Source of the DNA: Nitrososphaerales archaeon TH5895
GTDB lineage: Archaea > Thermoproteota > Nitrososphaeria > Nitrososphaerales > Nitrososphaeraceae
Length of the DNA: 15,950 nucleotides
NCBI GenBank assembly: GCA_014523695.1
Contig: JAATVS010000591.1
Coordinates: 1-15,950 of the forward strand
Reading direction: 5' to 3'
Made by a program: the position numbers and the translations under genes. The notes under the pieces were generated by a model. That model saw nothing but the letters and a program-made list of their open reading frames with translations. It was not told the origin of the DNA and ran no database searches. Positions 1,622-11,598 of this stretch are shown here, piece after piece (position 1 is the stretch's first letter; every line of letters starts with the position of its first letter).

Positions 1622-2602
1622 TTAAGAAGTTCCTGTCCTTGCCTCTTTTAGTATTGTAGCCACTATTAATTTAGTTACAGATGTAATGTAACCCATATCA
1701 AGATCAGACGGGAGGTCGTCGCTGCTATGGTAATGTGGATTATTGTCCTGTCCTTCATCATATAACCCTGTTACTACATATCCTCGATTTTCAAAAGGGC
1801 AATAATCACTTCCATATATAGGTCCTTTTATAGCTGTTAAGTTTGTATAAACGGAGGCGACCTCCTCCATAGAATGCGCAAAAGTCTCAGAGTCATTATC
1901 ATTACTTGATACTCTGTTGCATGGTGTAACCGTATTGCCTATATCTCTTTCTATGGTAATGTTCTGTTGTCCTAATGGTGGATAGCCAACCATATCTAAA
2001 TTAATCACCCTATGTACATCCATAGTATTATCTTTGACATATTGAGCATATTCTTCTGCTCCCCAATAGTCTTGCTCTTCTCCCGAGAATAAAACAAATT
2101 GAATACTGTAGTGCAAGTCTACTTGTAAAAGAATTTGTGCAGTCTCGAGAACTACAGCCACACCACTAGCATTGTCATCAGCTCCTGGAGCGCTAGACTC
2201 TGCATCTTCACGCTCTTTCATTCTGCTGTCATAGTGGGCACAAATAATGATCACTTTATCAGTTTTGCCCTGTTTATTACAAATGACATTCTTTAACTGA
2301 TAGTTGCTTTTAGTATAATCATGAAAGTAGATATTCGTATGACCGATATTTTCGAACTCTATCTTTAACCACTCTGCTACTTGATTAATAAATCTAGACT
2401 TGGAATGTCGAGTAGGAAAAGAAGATGTAAGTCTATTGATCCATGCTTCGATACGAGTTTTGGAAACTAATTCCATCTGGGAATCGATAAATTTGTCACG
2501 AACGTATGTAGCCTTTTTCGCCTGTGTTATTTCGGAAGGAACTAGTGGAACCTCAGGACGATCTCCCTTACAAGAATGTAAATAAGGCTTATATTCTTTC
2601 AT
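1622..2602 (-). CDS. M28 family zinc aminopeptidase (copy 1)
   Basis: A 326-residue peptidase of family M28, which uses two zinc ions to remove N-terminal residues from peptides. All five metal ligands and the catalytic base are visible: H123 in CAHYDS, D143 in GADDNASG, E175 (catalytic) and E176 (ligand) in SGEEQ, D203 in NLDMVGY and H292 in HYHSSDD. The first 110 residues form the usual helical lead-in, with TRHSKSRF near 64-71. There is no hydrophobic signal peptide, so as annotated it would stay in the cytoplasm, although many M28 enzymes are exported. The ATG is favoured because a TATA box lies 26 bases upstream. It is clearly paralogous to the gene at 5464-6456, including a CKG triplet near the N-terminus and the RHSKS motif. 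The exact substrate (aminopeptidase or carboxypeptidase type) cannot be read from sequence. Confidence 0.93.
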   Translation of the reverse strand: MKEYKPYLHSCKGDRPEVPLVPSEITQAKKATYVRDKFIDSQMELVSKTRIEAWINRLTSSFPTRHSKSRFINQVAEWLKIEFENIGHTNIYFHDYTKSNYQLKNVICNKQGKTDKVIIICAHYDSRMKEREDAESSAPGADDNASGVAVVLETAQILLQVDLHYSIQFVLFSGEEQDYWGAEEYAQYVKDNTMDVHRVINLDMVGYPPLGQQNITIERDIGNTVTPCNRVSSNDNDSETFAHSMEEVASVYTNLTAIKGPIYGSDYCPFENRGYVVTGLYDEGQDNNPHYHSSDDLPSDLDMGYITSVTKLIVATILKEARTGTS

Positions 2603-4459: not shown

Positions 4460-4753
4460 TCAGAAATCTACTATTTCCGGTTCGTGCTCCGGGCCATTCT
4501 CATGTATCTTAAATTCTGGAGTTGTGCTGTCTGTAATTTCACTCTCATTCACAGGTACTAGTATAGCTACGAACTTCTCTCCTACTTTAATAGGGCTCCC
4601 ATCAAATGTGAGTTCAACTTTTAGCTTATTATCAGATTTGGAATATTCGAGCCTGCCTGATTTTACTTTACCTGGATTAAGAAACGCTATCCCATAGTAG
4701 GTGTGTTCATCGTCCTCTATGCTGTCGTGCCTGATAATGACTTTGAATGTCAT
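4460..4753 (-). CDS. Small acidic beta-rich protein, unrecognised
   Basis: A 97-residue protein with no signal peptide. Alternating hydrophobic residues (FKVIIRH, YYGIAFL, LKVELTF, KFVAILVP) and the turn motifs NPGKVKSG and DGSPIKVGE suggest a single beta-sandwich or barrel domain, ending in an acidic tail (HENGPEHEPE). The ATG at 4753 is supported by a TATA box about 30 bases upstream, and a T8 run follows the stop. The overlapping frame on the opposite strand is Ser- and Phe-rich and lacks these supports. Function is unknown. By size and fold it resembles small structural or binding domains, not an enzyme. Confidence 0.72.
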   Translation of the reverse strand: MTFKVIIRHDSIEDDEHTYYGIAFLNPGKVKSGRLEYSKSDNKLKVELTFDGSPIKVGEKFVAILVPVNESEITDSTTPEFKIHENGPEHEPEIVDF

Positions 4754-5463: not shown

Positions 5464-6456
5464 ATGGCGTGTAAAGGACCATTAGAATCTTATCCGCCTC
5501 CAGACAAGAGAAAGTCTCCTAGAATTTCCCATGAGTTTCTCAAAAGAACGCGACAGCGAGTCATAAGAAAATCTGCTGAAAAGACAAATTTCATAGGCTC
5601 GCAAGTCAATCTAGTTATAAGGAACAATATCAGTAATAAGATAGATAGCCTTACAACGTTTCACAATAGACATAGCAAATCTCCAAACATTAACATCGCA
5701 GCAGAATGGATTATGAATGAGCTCAAGCAGTTTGACAACAATGTCACGTACCACGAATATGTGCAGGGCAACCATCAATTAAGAAATGTTGTATACCACA
5801 AGCAAGGAGCAACAGATAAAATTCTCCTCTTTTGTGCACACTATGATACTATTTTGAACACGAGACGAGAGGACATAGATGCCAGAGCTCCTGGAGCTAA
5901 TGATAATGCCAGTGGTGTTTGTTCGCTTTTAGAAATATCTCGTATTATATCAAAATTAGACTTCGAACTTAGTTTACGTTTTGTTTTCTTTTCAGGAGAG
6001 GAGCAAGGACTATGGGGTTCTACGCATTACGCTGAAGCGATTAAGGAGAGAAATGAAGACCTTTATGCTGTCATTAACATGGATATGTGTGCGGAACCTG
6101 GTTTTCTATCCACTAATAGAACAACGTACGTAGACATAGATGACGGGAGTACGGGATTAGTCACTACTAACAATGAACCATCTCAGAAACTAGGTGAAAA
6201 GATGGAACAAATGGCAATAGATTACGTGCCCGGCCTGAACGTTGATTACGATCCTATTGATGCTAGTGACTACATGCCATTTGAAGCACGTGGATATGTA
6301 TGTATCGGCGCGTATGATGGATCAGCTGTATCGGAAAATTCTCACTACCATAGCGAAACTGATTTACTATCCAATCTAGACGTGGAACTCCTTACTTCTG
6401 TCACCAAAATGGTGTTGGCATTCGCACTAACTGAAGGGAAAGTTAAAGATTCTTAG
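5464..6456 (+). CDS. M28 family zinc aminopeptidase (copy 2)
   Basis: A 330-residue paralogue of the M28 protein at 1622-2602, with all active-site residues present: H126 in CAHYDT, D147 in GANDNASG, E179 (catalytic) and E180 in SGEEQ, D207 in NMDM and H296 in HYHSETD. The usual GADDN is GANDN here, but the ligand is the second acidic residue, which is kept. Residues 1-115 hold a charged, proline-containing head (PPPDKRKSPR) and the RHSKS motif shared with copy 1. There is no signal peptide. The ATG is chosen because of the well-spaced TATA box and because stops precede it. The gene is divergent from the minus-strand group, and a hairpin with a T-run follows it. The two copies differ enough in the loop between D207 and H296 to suggest different peptide preferences (inference). 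Confidence 0.93.
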   Translation: MACKGPLESYPPPDKRKSPRISHEFLKRTRQRVIRKSAEKTNFIGSQVNLVIRNNISNKIDSLTTFHNRHSKSPNINIAAEWIMNELKQFDNNVTYHEYVQGNHQLRNVVYHKQGATDKILLFCAHYDTILNTRREDIDARAPGANDNASGVCSLLEISRIISKLDFELSLRFVFFSGEEQGLWGSTHYAEAIKERNEDLYAVINMDMCAEPGFLSTNRTTYVDIDDGSTGLVTTNNEPSQKLGEKMEQMAIDYVPGLNVDYDPIDASDYMPFEARGYVCIGAYDGSAVSENSHYHSETDLLSNLDVELLTSVTKMVLAFALTEGKVKDS

Positions 6457-7232: not shown

Positions 7233-8318
7233 TTAGACATACGATATTTTTTCTTCGACAGGGACGATCTTGTTCACTCCATCATAGACCTTACTTGACA
7301 GATGCATTGCCTCGGTTATACTCTTCTCATCATTATAGCATATTACAGGAGATTGCAATAATGACGCCCGAGGACCGTTGAGGGTGGCATGCATTCTAGC
7401 AGCTTGCCCAACGGTAAACATATACATTCCAACATCGTCCGTATAATCCATGTAATTCATGAACATTGTACCATTTGGCCCAGTATCATCGCATGACTGT
7501 TCGAAGCTCGGGAAGGTAGGTACTCCAGAACTATCAAGCTTCTGGTTAGGAGTATCTGCAACATTGTCATCAAGACTGCATGAATCTTCCATCCACTCAT
7601 CACCCCAAATATGATAGCAATCCAAATAATGACCAACTTCATGAGTTGCCGTTCTGCCCAAATTAAATCGAGTACCAAAAGGACTTTGAGGTGAAACAGC
7701 TGATCCTGTATTGCCAAATACCCAATGGTTACAGGCAACCCCATCTGTTTGTGGATCTCCAGCTGGAAACTGAGCGTATCCCAACAGTGATGTTCCCAAG
7801 TTACAGACCCACAGGTTCAAATAACGAATTGTATCCCAGGGATCTTTTCCGCCTAGAGCAGTAGATTTAATTTCCTCTACATTAGGTGTAGTATCAATCA
7901 AGAACTCGTCTATATTTGTGGCTGTTCTTGTAATACCATTAGTTTTGTCACCGTTAGGGTCGATACATGCGAGTTTAAATTCGATACGTGTATCAGCTGC
8001 GACTGATTTCCATATGTCAGGTATATTGATCGCATCAGAATTGAGTTTTCGAAAATCCTTGTTGAGGATCTCAATCTGACTATATATCTGCGCATCAGAT
8101 ATATTTTCTATGGGTTGTTTGTGTACTACGTGAACAACAACAGGTATCGTCATAACACCGGCTCTCATCATCTTTCTAGCAGAACTACCTGTATAATTTA
8201 GCACATAAGTTTCATCTTCTTGTCTATTCTTCTTATAACGTTCCCCATTCTTGTTTATGTTCTTTTGATGTAATATGCCTGTCCCACATAAATCACGTCT
8301 TCTTTGGATTTTACTCAC
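7233..8318 (-). CDS. M43 family (pappalysin/ulilysin-type) zinc metalloprotease
   Basis: A 361-residue metzincin endopeptidase. The zinc site is HEVGHYLDCYH (H226, E227, H230, H236), the extended HExxHxxGxxH motif with Asp replacing the usual Gly at 233. The Met-turn is M290 in NYMDYTDD, followed by GQAARMH, typical of M43. The N-terminal domain from PVVVHVVH (59-66) through ISDAQIYSQI to TNGITRT matches the family. Residues 9-40 contain CGT at C11-T13, the place where archaeal and bacterial M43 prosegments carry a cysteine-switch Cys that latches the zinc (family knowledge; here inferred). There is no signal peptide, although family members are usually secreted. The start is GTG at 8318, with a TATA box 27 bases upstream. 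The D233 change is beside, not in, the ligands, so activity is probable. Confidence 0.93.
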   Translation of the reverse strand: MSKIQRRRDLCGTGILHQKNINKNGERYKKNRQEDETYVLNYTGSSARKMMRAGVMTIPVVVHVVHKQPIENISDAQIYSQIEILNKDFRKLNSDAINIPDIWKSVAADTRIEFKLACIDPNGDKTNGITRTATNIDEFLIDTTPNVEEIKSTALGGKDPWDTIRYLNLWVCNLGTSLLGYAQFPAGDPQTDGVACNHWVFGNTGSAVSPQSPFGTRFNLGRTATHEVGHYLDCYHIWGDEWMEDSCSLDDNVADTPNQKLDSSGVPTFPSFEQSCDDTGPNGTMFMNYMDYTDDVGMYMFTVGQAARMHATLNGPRASLLQSPVICYNDEKSITEAMHLSSKVYDGVNKIVPVEEKISYV

Positions 8319-9340: not shown

Positions 9341-10180
9341 TCAAGGAGTAACCCGAAAAGCGGTAGCGTTACCTGCAATCCTTACCATTCGATGGTCTTC
9401 AACCTTCTTCGGGATGGATTCACCGATAGTCGAAACGTCATAAATCCTACCTTTGAAGTCCACCTTGCATTGATTTGCTATAGGAATAGTATAACCTTCT
9501 GACAAATCAACAGATGCAGAGAGAGATCCTCCAGGAGCAATTTGCACATAATCTTCTTTAATAGGCTGACCGCGCTTCATCATTATCCCCTCGTAAGGGA
9601 TATCTTTTCCGTCACAGGTAACATTAAAAATCTTTCCTTTCAGACCTTCTAACGGGGTATACCAATTTAGAATCCATAAATTTTCATCTGAAGAATTTTC
9701 TAACAGGAAGCCAATAACAATTGGTCTGTCTTTAATGTATGTGTCATTTGCGCTTAATCGGTACCTAATTTTTTCAGCTATTGAAGACATGTTATCCGTT
9801 TCCATAATTCTGCTCGTAACTTGCTGATTTAAGATCAGTTTGCACACATTTAAATTTTCTTCCTCCAAAGGTAATGATTCCTGTTTCAAATTATTTATTC
9901 CACTATCAACTTGTTGGGGCGAGAAGATGTCTGAATTGGAAATCTCCTTATTCATCAAGTCTAGTGCTCCATAGCCGTATGTAAAGATACCAATCGAATC
10001 AGTATAAGTGTCACAGACTTGCTGACTTGAGAATAGGGTCGCTTTATCATTCATTTCAGCTTTCAAACTTTCAATCAATTCAGGAGATAACTCACTTACC
10101 ATATTCCCATTCGATGCAAGAAACGTAATCATTATGAAATTAAGGCAAATAAATCGAGCAATTTCTGAATGTATTGTCAC
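9341..10180 (-). CDS. Exported-looking protein with an orphan M35 propeptide-like domain
   Basis: About 279 residues from the GTG at 10180. The longer TTG frame at 10201 is disfavoured because the likely TATA box (10201-10210) would overlap it. Residues 10-22 are a hydrophobic run (FICLNFIMITFLA) after one Arg, resembling a signal peptide or anchor. Residues 30-130 are polar, Ser- and Gln-rich and unrecognised. Residues 137-273 are homologous to residues 10-150 of the M35 protease encoded divergently next door: NSSDENLW matches NNSDRTLY, PLEG matches PIEG, MMKR matches VMKR, EDY matches DDY, and GRIYDV matches SRVLDV. In M35/aspzincin proteases this domain sits in front of the catalytic domain; in the Aeromonas enzyme AsaP1 the N-terminal propeptide blocks the active site. 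Here the catalytic HExxH domain is absent. Possible roles are inhibitor, chaperone or substrate recruiter for the neighbour (inference), or a remnant of a duplicated protease fused to other sequence. Confidence 0.8.
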   Translation of the reverse strand: MTIHSEIARFICLNFIMITFLASNGNMVSELSPELIESLKAEMNDKATLFSSQQVCDTYTDSIGIFTYGYGALDLMNKEISNSDIFSPQQVDSGINNLKQESLPLEEENLNVCKLILNQQVTSRIMETDNMSSIAEKIRYRLSANDTYIKDRPIVIGFLLENSSDENLWILNWYTPLEGLKGKIFNVTCDGKDIPYEGIMMKRGQPIKEDYVQIAPGGSLSASVDLSEGYTIPIANQCKVDFKGRIYDVSTIGESIPKKVEDHRMVRIAGNATAFRVTP

Positions 10181-10200
10181 AGGTGTAGTTGGAGGTACCA

Positions 10201-10210
10201 AAATAATTAA
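10201..10210 (-). promoter_or_regulatory. Putative TATA box for the orphan propeptide-like gene
   Basis: On the minus strand this reads TTAATTATTT and is centred about 26 bases before the GTG at 10180. The match to a TATA box is moderate. Confidence 0.35.
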
Positions 10211-10491
10211 GCATTTCGAGAGGATCTGTTAAATGCGGATTCGAATCTACTTATCCCAGAATCATCAAGATTCGACCTATCTCTCCTCAGATATTGAAAA
10301 AGGATTGACAGCTACTAAAACTCATCCATAAGATAACATCACTCTGTTATATATCCATTGTAAGCTTCTGTATTATTGGCATAGTGGATGCTTAGCCTAA
10401 TTCGAGGAGAGAAGCCAAGTTACCGTATGGAATTGACTAAATCTAATTAATTCAGCAACTTATATCTTGACTCTAGAAAAAGACGATCATG
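10211..10491. other. Divergent intergenic region between orphan propeptide-like gene and M35 gene
   Basis: About 300 bases separate the two divergent starts. No ORF, strong inverted repeat or RNA gene is seen. Its only recognisable elements are the two TATA-like boxes at its edges, so any shared regulation would have to act here. Confidence 0.4.
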
Positions 10492-10500
10492 TTTATATAG
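10492..10500 (+). promoter_or_regulatory. TATA box for the M35 gene
   Basis: TTTATATAG is centred 26 bases before the ATG at 10522. It is one of the best TATA matches in the window. Confidence 0.6.
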
Positions 10501-10521
10501 TATTGTATTAGAGAAATACTT

Positions 10522-11598
10522 ATGTCAAATAGTACTTACGGTTCGACAGCGCTTTCCGTAAAAATAGAATTGAGCAAAAAGCAATACCAATCACGAGATG
10601 GACAGGATCTTAGAGTTATTTTAAGCAACAATTCTGACCGAACCCTGTATCTGTTAAAGTGGCAATTACCGATTGAAGGTATGTGGGATTGCGATCCATT
10701 TTGGGTAAAAAGGGGGGAAGAGGTTCAGGTGTATCTGGGGAAGGTGATGAAGAGAGCAGCTCCAAAACCTGATGACTATATCACCCTAGATCCACAAGAA
10801 TCGATTCAAACTGATTTTGATGTTTCGGAGTCATATGATATCTCGAAAGCTGGTAAATACACTATCGAGCTCGATTCTCGAGTATTGGACGTGGGAACAC
10901 AGGAACCAAAAGTCTTAGTTAAAAGGCTGGCTGAGACACGTGAATTTCATTCACAGAGACTTCGTTCAAACATTGTTGATTTTGAACTTTTGGAAGACAG
11001 AGCTCCTAAACAATTGAAGGGGGTAGACTCAAAATGGAGCGCGCTATTGACTACTACTCCCAACATTCCTGATTTTCGATCCTGCACAACCAATCAACAG
11101 AATGAGCTGGGCGAAGCAAAAGAAGCAGCAGAGGGGATAGCAAAACAGGCCCATAGTGCCCTGTCAGGTACTGAACAATCTAGTATGGCCCAAGCACGTC
11201 GTTACAAAGAATGGTTTGGCAATTACACACAACAAGCACACAGTCAAGCGGCAAACAATTTCAGCAAAATAGTAGAGGCACTTGCTACAAAACAGATAAT
11301 TTTTAATTGTTCGATGGAGGATTGTCGAGAAGGAGTATTTGCATACGTCTACCCTTCGCGACCTTATGAGATTTTCTTATGCGGTGCATTCTGGAGTGCG
11401 GACTTGACAGGGACCGATTCTAGGGCCGGAACAATTGTGCATGAGTTGAGTCATTTCAATGTCGTAGCTGGAACTGATGATAACGTATATGGTCAAAGTG
11501 GTTGTAGGCAGCTCGCAATAGACAGTCCAGAAGAGGCAATAGCTAACGCCGACAGTCACGAGTATTTTGCAGAAAATACACCAGAGCTTCCCATGTAA
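10522..11598 (+). CDS. M35 family (aspzincin, peptidyl-Lys type) metalloendopeptidase
   Basis: A 358-residue zinc endopeptidase. The aspzincin signature is complete: HELSH (H307, E308, H311) followed by GTDDNVYG (317-324), whose D320 is the third zinc ligand. Upstream are the family blocks TNQQNELGEAK (190-200), a helix ending WFGNYTQQAH (231-240), FNCSMEDC (261-268), and VYPSRPYEIFLCGAFW (276-291). The C-terminal NADSHEYFAEN (341-351) closes the domain, so it is full length. Residues 10-150 are the beta-sandwich N-terminal domain that acts as propeptide in related enzymes, with VMKR at 75-78. Characterised relatives often cleave next to lysine. Remarkably there is no signal peptide, and an in-frame stop a few codons before the ATG rules out a longer N-terminus, whereas relatives are secreted. 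The gene is divergent from the orphan propeptide-like gene. A T7 run follows the stop. Confidence 0.94.
   Translation: MSNSTYGSTALSVKIELSKKQYQSRDGQDLRVILSNNSDRTLYLLKWQLPIEGMWDCDPFWVKRGEEVQVYLGKVMKRAAPKPDDYITLDPQESIQTDFDVSESYDISKAGKYTIELDSRVLDVGTQEPKVLVKRLAETREFHSQRLRSNIVDFELLEDRAPKQLKGVDSKWSALLTTTPNIPDFRSCTTNQQNELGEAKEAAEGIAKQAHSALSGTEQSSMAQARRYKEWFGNYTQQAHSQAANNFSKIVEALATKQIIFNCSMEDCREGVFAYVYPSRPYEIFLCGAFWSADLTGTDSRAGTIVHELSHFNVVAGTDDNVYGQSGCRQLAIDSPEEAIANADSHEYFAENTPELPM

Follow-up and report, generated by a model that had tools for sequence, protein, structure and literature searches.

The window analysed here, a 15,950-nucleotide stretch of DNA from Nitrososphaerales archaeon TH5895 (contig C499 of a 3.9 Mb draft genome that is 92% complete), encodes an AsaP1-like metallopeptidase of family M35 (10522-11598, plus strand) and, next to it, a protein of 279 residues (9341-10180, minus strand), here called the orphan, which ends in a stand-alone copy of the propeptide-like N-terminal domain of that protease. 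The copy is under purifying selection, and the two genes are kept as neighbours in a second archaeal genome and, in comparable form, in two Gammaproteobacteria. We suggest that the orphan may inhibit the adjacent M35 protease in trans, in the manner of a propeptide, or serve as its immunity partner, a role to which the comparison of genes gives, in our judgement, about an even chance. Both genes lie where a first-pass annotation, made from the letters of this DNA, had placed them.

The orphan carries a second copy of the M35 N-terminal domain

The protease belongs to family M35 by its catalytic domain as well as by its zinc and catalytic motifs. It matches PF14521 (Aspzincin_M35) with an E value of 2.1e-46 and 158.3 bits, against a curated cut-off of 30, and the AsaP1 structures 2x3a and 2x3b with E values of 5.7e-64 and 1.5e-63 over a span of residues 26-355. 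The HExxH sequence is present as HELSH, and GTxxDxxY, the zinc/catalytic motif of the aspzincin family, reads GTDDNVYG. Aspzincins have a tyrosine three residues past the zinc aspartate (PMC11985622). An export leader is not seen on the TH5895 protease, the open frame of 365 residues leaving room for only a few upstream of the 358-residue protein, and the M35 of the related genome TH526 is likewise without one (open frame of 364 residues, protein of 358).

The orphan itself is not an M35 peptidase. As the first-pass annotation had recognised, it lacks the catalytic domain and has a hydrophobic leader and a spacer instead; no M35 catalytic domain was matched in Pfam and no HExxH is found by eye within its 279 residues. 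At the limits used, no family of Pfam, NCBIfam, PADLOC or PHROGs was matched at all, and none of the emfourin inhibitor type, although it was not checked that these collections include an emfourin model. The GTG start of the gene aligns with the ATG of its ortholog in TH526, a TTG at 10201 being an alternative further upstream, and the leader reaches a maximum 15-residue mean hydropathy of 2.1 in the window and of 3.43 in the ortholog.

The homology to the N-terminal domain of the neighbouring M35 extends over residues 126-279 of the orphan (BLASTP E 2e-14). The same match was recovered in whole-genome searches with E values of 2.6e-12 and 1.7e-11, and in a phmmer comparison it scores 50.0 bits, the best of 2000 shuffled M35 domains reaching 8.8 bits. 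The alignment, which has 28% identity, contains all four of the block matches picked out in the first-pass annotation (NSSDENLW/NNSDRTLY, PLEG/PIEG, MMKR/VMKR and EDY/DDY). The orphan domain also matches the N-terminal domain of AsaP1 directly (E 1.9e-5), and if, with AsaP1 as the model, this domain is taken to be a propeptide, the orphan is a separate gene whose product is homologous to a protease propeptide. Seven alignment columns are identical across all ten domain copies compared; three of these form the sequence K-R-x-x-P, which the AsaP1 domain also shows when aligned with the orphan. A third, weak match in TH5895, on contig C50 (E 0.114), lies inside an open reading frame of 483 residues that looks recombinase-like by eye, and another on contig C162 (E 0.70) contains two stops; both were taken as chance.

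Orthologs of the pair are present on a 12,377-base contig (JAATVR010000568.1) of Nitrososphaerales archaeon TH526, which belongs to the same genus as TH5895. The TH526 orphan also has 279 residues in an identical layout, is 61% identical over the 277 codons compared and has counterparts of all five cysteines of the window orphan. The ratio of nonsynonymous to synonymous substitution (omega, Nei-Gojobori count between the two genomes) is 0.18 for the M35 and 0.34 for the orphan as a whole, within which the domain has 0.20 and the spacer 0.55. Purifying selection thus acts on the orphan domain, and with a leader and a spacer of its own and an ortholog in a second genome the orphan is an intact gene.

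The order of the genes in TH526 is orphan (plus strand), M28 peptidase (plus strand) and M35 (minus strand), so that the pair stands tail to tail with 2.07 kb between. The first-pass annotation had described a divergent pair: the adjacency is conserved, both in TH526 and in the two bacteria described below, but the head-to-head orientation is not. A divergent promoter was accordingly rejected as the key feature of the locus, the orientation being different in TH526 and in the bacteria. Between 9000 and 11900 of the window there are 12 promoter-like matches, compared with 9.6 (standard deviation 2.6) in shuffled sequence, and an Rfam search of the window gave no match. TH526 holds in addition a decayed second set of these genes on its contig C455 (1678-4557), in pieces with stops, two from the orphan and three from the M28 peptidase. 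A piece of the M35 N-terminal domain on the same contig lies on the opposite strand, has a broken frame and continues into a piece of an M14 zinc carboxypeptidase.

Occurrence of the pair in archaea and bacteria

The searches of archaeal genomes were a loose first look at assemblies many of which are drafts, and absence from them is not proof. Searched with the orphan and, separately, with the M35, a set of 61 genomes gave matches in two, each time TH5895 and TH526; the two genes therefore co-occur in related genomes, a point on which the first-pass annotation had been prepared to see its proposal fail. PF14521 was found in the same two among 70 genomes of the family. The domain profile found them again among 400 genomes of the order, both bearing an M35, and of 398 genomes of the phylum it picked out TH5895 alone (TH526 had presumably not been drawn). 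A scan of genome contigs with two patterns, both for the N-terminal domain only, led to at least one confirmed locus, the TH526 contig. No relative was seen in the viral contigs scanned, and neither the M35 nor the stand-alone protein of Pseudoalteromonas (see below) had a match in phage records. A DNA-level search of E. coli genomes gave no match, and a diverged M35 could escape this search; an AsaP1-like protein has been reported in one E. coli strain (PMC3749937).

Relatives of the window M35 were found in 7 of 72,556 plasmid records. By the domain profile, the M35 carries the N-terminal domain in four of them, two from Streptomyces and one each from Pseudoalteromonas xiamenensis and Aeromonas caviae. 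The two gammaproteobacterial records also encode an extra, stand-alone copy, side by side with the M35 and in tandem with it, and each of them (0.92 Mb and 4.94 Mb) contains exactly these two domain copies and no other. None of the three records in which the match covers the catalytic part of the M35 only yielded a copy of the domain. The free protein of P. xiamenensis has 151 residues, is annotated as hypothetical and is encoded 127 bp downstream of the M35; that of A. caviae has 143 residues, counted from a start chosen by hand behind a GGAGG, is unannotated in the record and lies 43 bp downstream. In both species a hydrophobic leader is visible by eye on the M35 as well as on the stand-alone protein. 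The first-pass annotation had spoken of such a pair in archaea; the archaeal pair is real, and with a comparable one in these two Gammaproteobacteria an archaeal host is not essential to it.

The A. caviae record (NZ_AP026896.1) is filed as a plasmid of 4.94 Mb with 18 listed features and is probably a chromosome mislabelled as such. The Streptomyces proteases (L026, 5040-6689, and L027, 5007-7247) have the same N-terminal domain, are leaderless by eye and have long repeats at their end, the second being annotated as hemopexin repeat-containing.

In pairwise comparison the best scores of the archaeal orphans, 59 and 65 bits, are those with the domain of one Streptomyces M35; they reach 45-50 bits against that of the other, 48-58 bits against the archaeal M35s, 47-51 bits against the bacterial stand-alone proteins and 32-34 bits against the M35 domains of Aeromonas and Pseudoalteromonas.

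Possible roles of the free domain

As a trans-acting inhibitor, the orphan would be brought to the cell surface by export or be held there by an anchor, and would bind the catalytic domain of the M35 in trans and block its activity, much as subtilisins are inhibited by stand-alone proteins of the propeptide type. Contact would be made, most likely, through the loop that holds the invariant K-R-x-x-P. Peptidyl-Lys metalloendopeptidases cleave in front of lysine (PMC11985622), and the invariant lysine of this loop might therefore sit as a pseudo-substrate in the S1' pocket, whether it belongs to the protease's own prodomain (in cis) or to the orphan (in trans). In doing so the orphan would protect the producer's own surface. 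If this is true, these proteins represent a new family of naturally encoded aspzincin inhibitors, made by reuse of the enzyme's own propeptide domain, and the gene next to the M35 in A. caviae and Pseudoalteromonas would be a candidate off-switch.

But why would a protease that already carries the domain in cis be given a second copy in trans? This duplication counts against an inhibitory role of the orphan, and so do several other observations. The archaeal orphan has a leader in TH5895 as well as in TH526 and the archaeal M35 has none, a mismatch that the first-pass annotation had not remarked on, so that the two proteins may sit in different compartments. Two bacterial instances only were found, and the two Streptomyces plasmids with a domain-bearing M35, which were searched as plasmids and not together with the chromosomes, have no stand-alone copy. 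In the best version of a tree of ten domain copies the archaeal orphans group, weakly, with the Streptomyces M35 domains (support 53/78), and the tree does not establish a single origin of the stand-alone copies, nor does it reject one (approximately unbiased test, p-AU 0.35). Finally, AlphaFold models built from four-row alignments were unusable, with a mean predicted local distance difference test score (pLDDT) of 37.3 for the orphan and of 41.4 for the M35. A grouping of the archaeal orphans with the archaeal M35s is likewise not rejected by the tree (p-AU 0.50). Either the module has passed from one domain of life to another, or free copies have arisen repeatedly beside domain-bearing M35s; the latter, if true, would be the stronger hint of a function.

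The mismatch of the leaders is either a problem for the inhibitor model or a hint of an effector/immunity topology, and the archaeal M35 either exits by another route, is freed on lysis or never meets the orphan. In the effector/immunity case, a leaderless M35 zymogen and further hydrolases of the island that have no leader would be released by a route other than Sec, possibly by a particle resembling a contractile injection system, and the exported prodomain copy would shield the surface of the producer and its kin, bacteria with a secreted M35 using the same module. The two-gene neighbourhood recurs in TH526, A. caviae and Pseudoalteromonas; the effector/immunity scenario as a whole we consider unlikely. 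Should the orphan indeed be an inhibitor of the M35, a protease without a leader beside a partner with one would suggest, for the archaeon, antagonism based on proteases or an unconventional mode of release.

Three further explanations have to be set against an inhibitor. The orphan domain could be a duplicate that was turned into a surface beta-domain for adhesion, substrate capture or targeting and that stands near the M35 by history only. The long and poorly conserved spacer of the orphan, with cysteines of its own, and an identity to the M35 domain of no more than 28% are what one would expect of such a change of function. Yet the orphan, in the genomes and records that were searched, co-occurs with an M35 that bears the domain, shares K-R-x-x-P with the M35 domains and has left its remnants together with those of the protease on contig C455 of TH526, and we regard the proposal as rather unlikely. 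The free domain might, alternatively, be a folding partner, that is an intermolecular chaperone of the M35 catalytic domain and not its inhibitor. Propeptides are able to do both jobs, as is reported for subtilases (PMC6993865), and in Aeromonas and Pseudoalteromonas both proteins have a leader by eye and could meet in the periplasm. All four M35s that have a stand-alone partner already contain the domain in cis, however, and a second copy for folding is not obviously needed, which makes this an unlikely explanation.

That the orphan is simply the N-terminal leftover of a second M35 gene can hardly be believed, even though the N-terminal domain piece that runs into the M14 carboxypeptidase on contig C455 is a wreck of just this kind. 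A leftover would not be expected to show an omega of 0.20, nor one and the same layout of 279 residues in TH5895 and TH526, including a leader and a spacer foreign to the M35. A remnant of a catalytic domain nearby was what the first-pass annotation had named as the sign of a truncated protease, and the full M35, run against the whole genome at E values up to 1, matched only itself and the orphan domain. On the grounds of selection, ortholog layout and the lack of a catalytic remnant in the genome we have rejected the truncated-protease explanation.

Neighbouring genes and known systems

The features of the locus are collected in the table. Around the window M35 lies a cluster of peptidases that are leaderless by eye, two of family M28 and one of family M43. 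Relatives of the M28 peptidase at 1622-2602 occur in 10 of 41 genomes searched, TH5895 included. A small protein encoded at 4460-4753 is 85% identical to one on the TH526 contig (L016, 2106-2423), its only Pfam match being sub-threshold (STK_08120-like).

Features of the window and of the tail-sheath loci in TH5895 and TH526
Feature	Position	Strand	Basis or remark
M28 peptidase	1622..2602	-	leaderless by eye; shares 49% identity with the M28 that separates orphan and M35 in TH526
M28 peptidase	5464..6456	+	leaderless by eye; an M28 gene is also found by the TH526 pair
M43 (pappalysin-type) peptidase	7233..8318	-	leaderless by eye; first gene of some size downstream of the orphan
Orphan, 279 residues: hydrophobic leader, spacer, stand-alone M35-type N-terminal domain	9341..10180	-	GTG start
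Orphan stand-alone AsaP1-type N-terminal domain, residues 126-279	9341..9805	-	omega 0.20
Orphan K-R-G-Q-P loop (K202, R203, P206)	9563..9577	-	alignment of 10 domain copies
Orphan spacer, residues 29-125	9806..10096	-	40% identity between archaeal orthologs; two conserved Cys
Orphan hydrophobic leader, residues 1-28	10097..10180	-	hydropathy; possible export signal or N-terminal anchor
Intergenic stretch separating the divergent start codons, 341 bp	10181..10521	.	
M35 aspzincin metalloendopeptidase, AsaP1-like, 358 residues	10522..11598	+	export leader: none seen
M35 propeptide-like N-terminal domain, residues 1-158	10522..10995	+	match to AsaP1 structures; alignment with orphan; domain profile
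M35 N-terminal domain loop K-R-A-A-P (K77, R78, P81)	10750..10764	+	
M35 interdomain linker, residues 159-184	10996..11073	+	limits chosen by hand; 54% between orthologs, least conserved part
M35 aspzincin catalytic domain, residues 185-358	11074..11595	+	PF14521 at 221-351; chain 1g12 at 185-354
M35 zinc-binding motif HELSH, residues 307-311	11440..11454	+	
M35 GTDDNVYG, aspzincin GTxxDxxY motif, residues 317-324	11470..11493	+	
Tail-sheath proteins, TH5895/TH526	L045 3194-4771, L046 2695-3798, L047 3748-5349		

Tail-sheath genes (PF04984) were found in TH5895 and TH526; none was seen in the three further genomes that represent the genus, one of which is 78% complete. Of the five genomes, the two with a sheath are thus also the two with an M35, a coincidence that is not significant with so small a number. 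Compared with solved structures, two of the sheaths match the tail sheath family including those of Afp and Pvc (best E values of 2.8e-138 and 2.8e-73). The tube family PF06841 gave no match above the cut-off, one match with an E value of 0.008 and an internal stop being seen on the TH526 sheath contig, and none in the control genomes either; the window's own contig has no sheath match. Delivery of the M35 by a contractile particle is thus at best a weak lead. Hydrolases are encoded beside the sheaths, an M64 peptidase on one contig and a tyrosinase together with a phospholipase D-like (PLD-like) protein on another, and a piece of a tyrosinase lies also on contig C455 of TH526.

Among known systems, inhibitors of this kind have been described for subtilisins, and an operon of a metalloprotease and its inhibitor is known as well; what appears to be new is the stand-alone copy of an M35 prodomain beside an M35, of which no description was found among the listed matches from the open-licence literature, searched by titles and the beginnings of abstracts. 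The best-known relative among bacteria is AsaP1 of Aeromonas salmonicida (family M35; PDB 2x3a/2x3b), which the window M35 matches over most of its length (residues 26-355) and whose N-terminal domain is matched by the orphan. In AsaP1 the domain is present in cis, whereas the archaeon has an extra copy as a separate protein with its own leader, next to an M35 that has none. Judging by the title of a 2016 study by Bogdanovic et al., the AsaP1 propeptide is said to inhibit its enzyme intramolecularly. AsaP1 has been called a major virulence factor of the fish pathogen (PMC3749937).

IPI of Bacillus subtilis, an all-beta protein with an immunoglobulin-like (Ig-like) fold, inhibits a protease made by its own cell and is possibly exported (PMC3901451). 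IPI has been reported to act against a subtilisin, and no relation to the orphan, which no Pfam family matches, is apparent. Effectors of the Tse1 type are not known to have a leader, and with regard to leaders the archaeal pair, in which the orphan has one and its M35 has not, is similar to Tse1/Tsi1. There the immunity protein is moved to the periplasm of the producer, where it meets the toxin (PMC3391265). The M35s of the two Gammaproteobacteria, by contrast, carry, by eye, leaders of their own. Protealysin and emfourin, a metalloprotease and an inhibitor encoded in one operon, have been proposed to serve as effector and immunity protein, emfourin being described as the prototype of a novel family of inhibitors (PMC9505478). 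Here too a metalloprotease gene is paired with that of a candidate inhibitor, but the archaeal partner is homologous to a part of the protease itself, its N-terminal domain.

The subtilisin propeptide-like inhibitors (MEROPS I9, such as the yeast peptidase B inhibitor; SUB1-ProM; TgMIC5) concern a family of serine proteases, their fold differs from that of the M35-type domain, and inhibition has been measured for them and is proposed for the archaeal orphan. What they have in common with the orphan is that a mimic of a propeptide comes from a separate gene. Such stand-alone mimics of subtilisin propeptides are known, and the gene for SUB1-ProM adjoins subtilase genes (PMC6993865).

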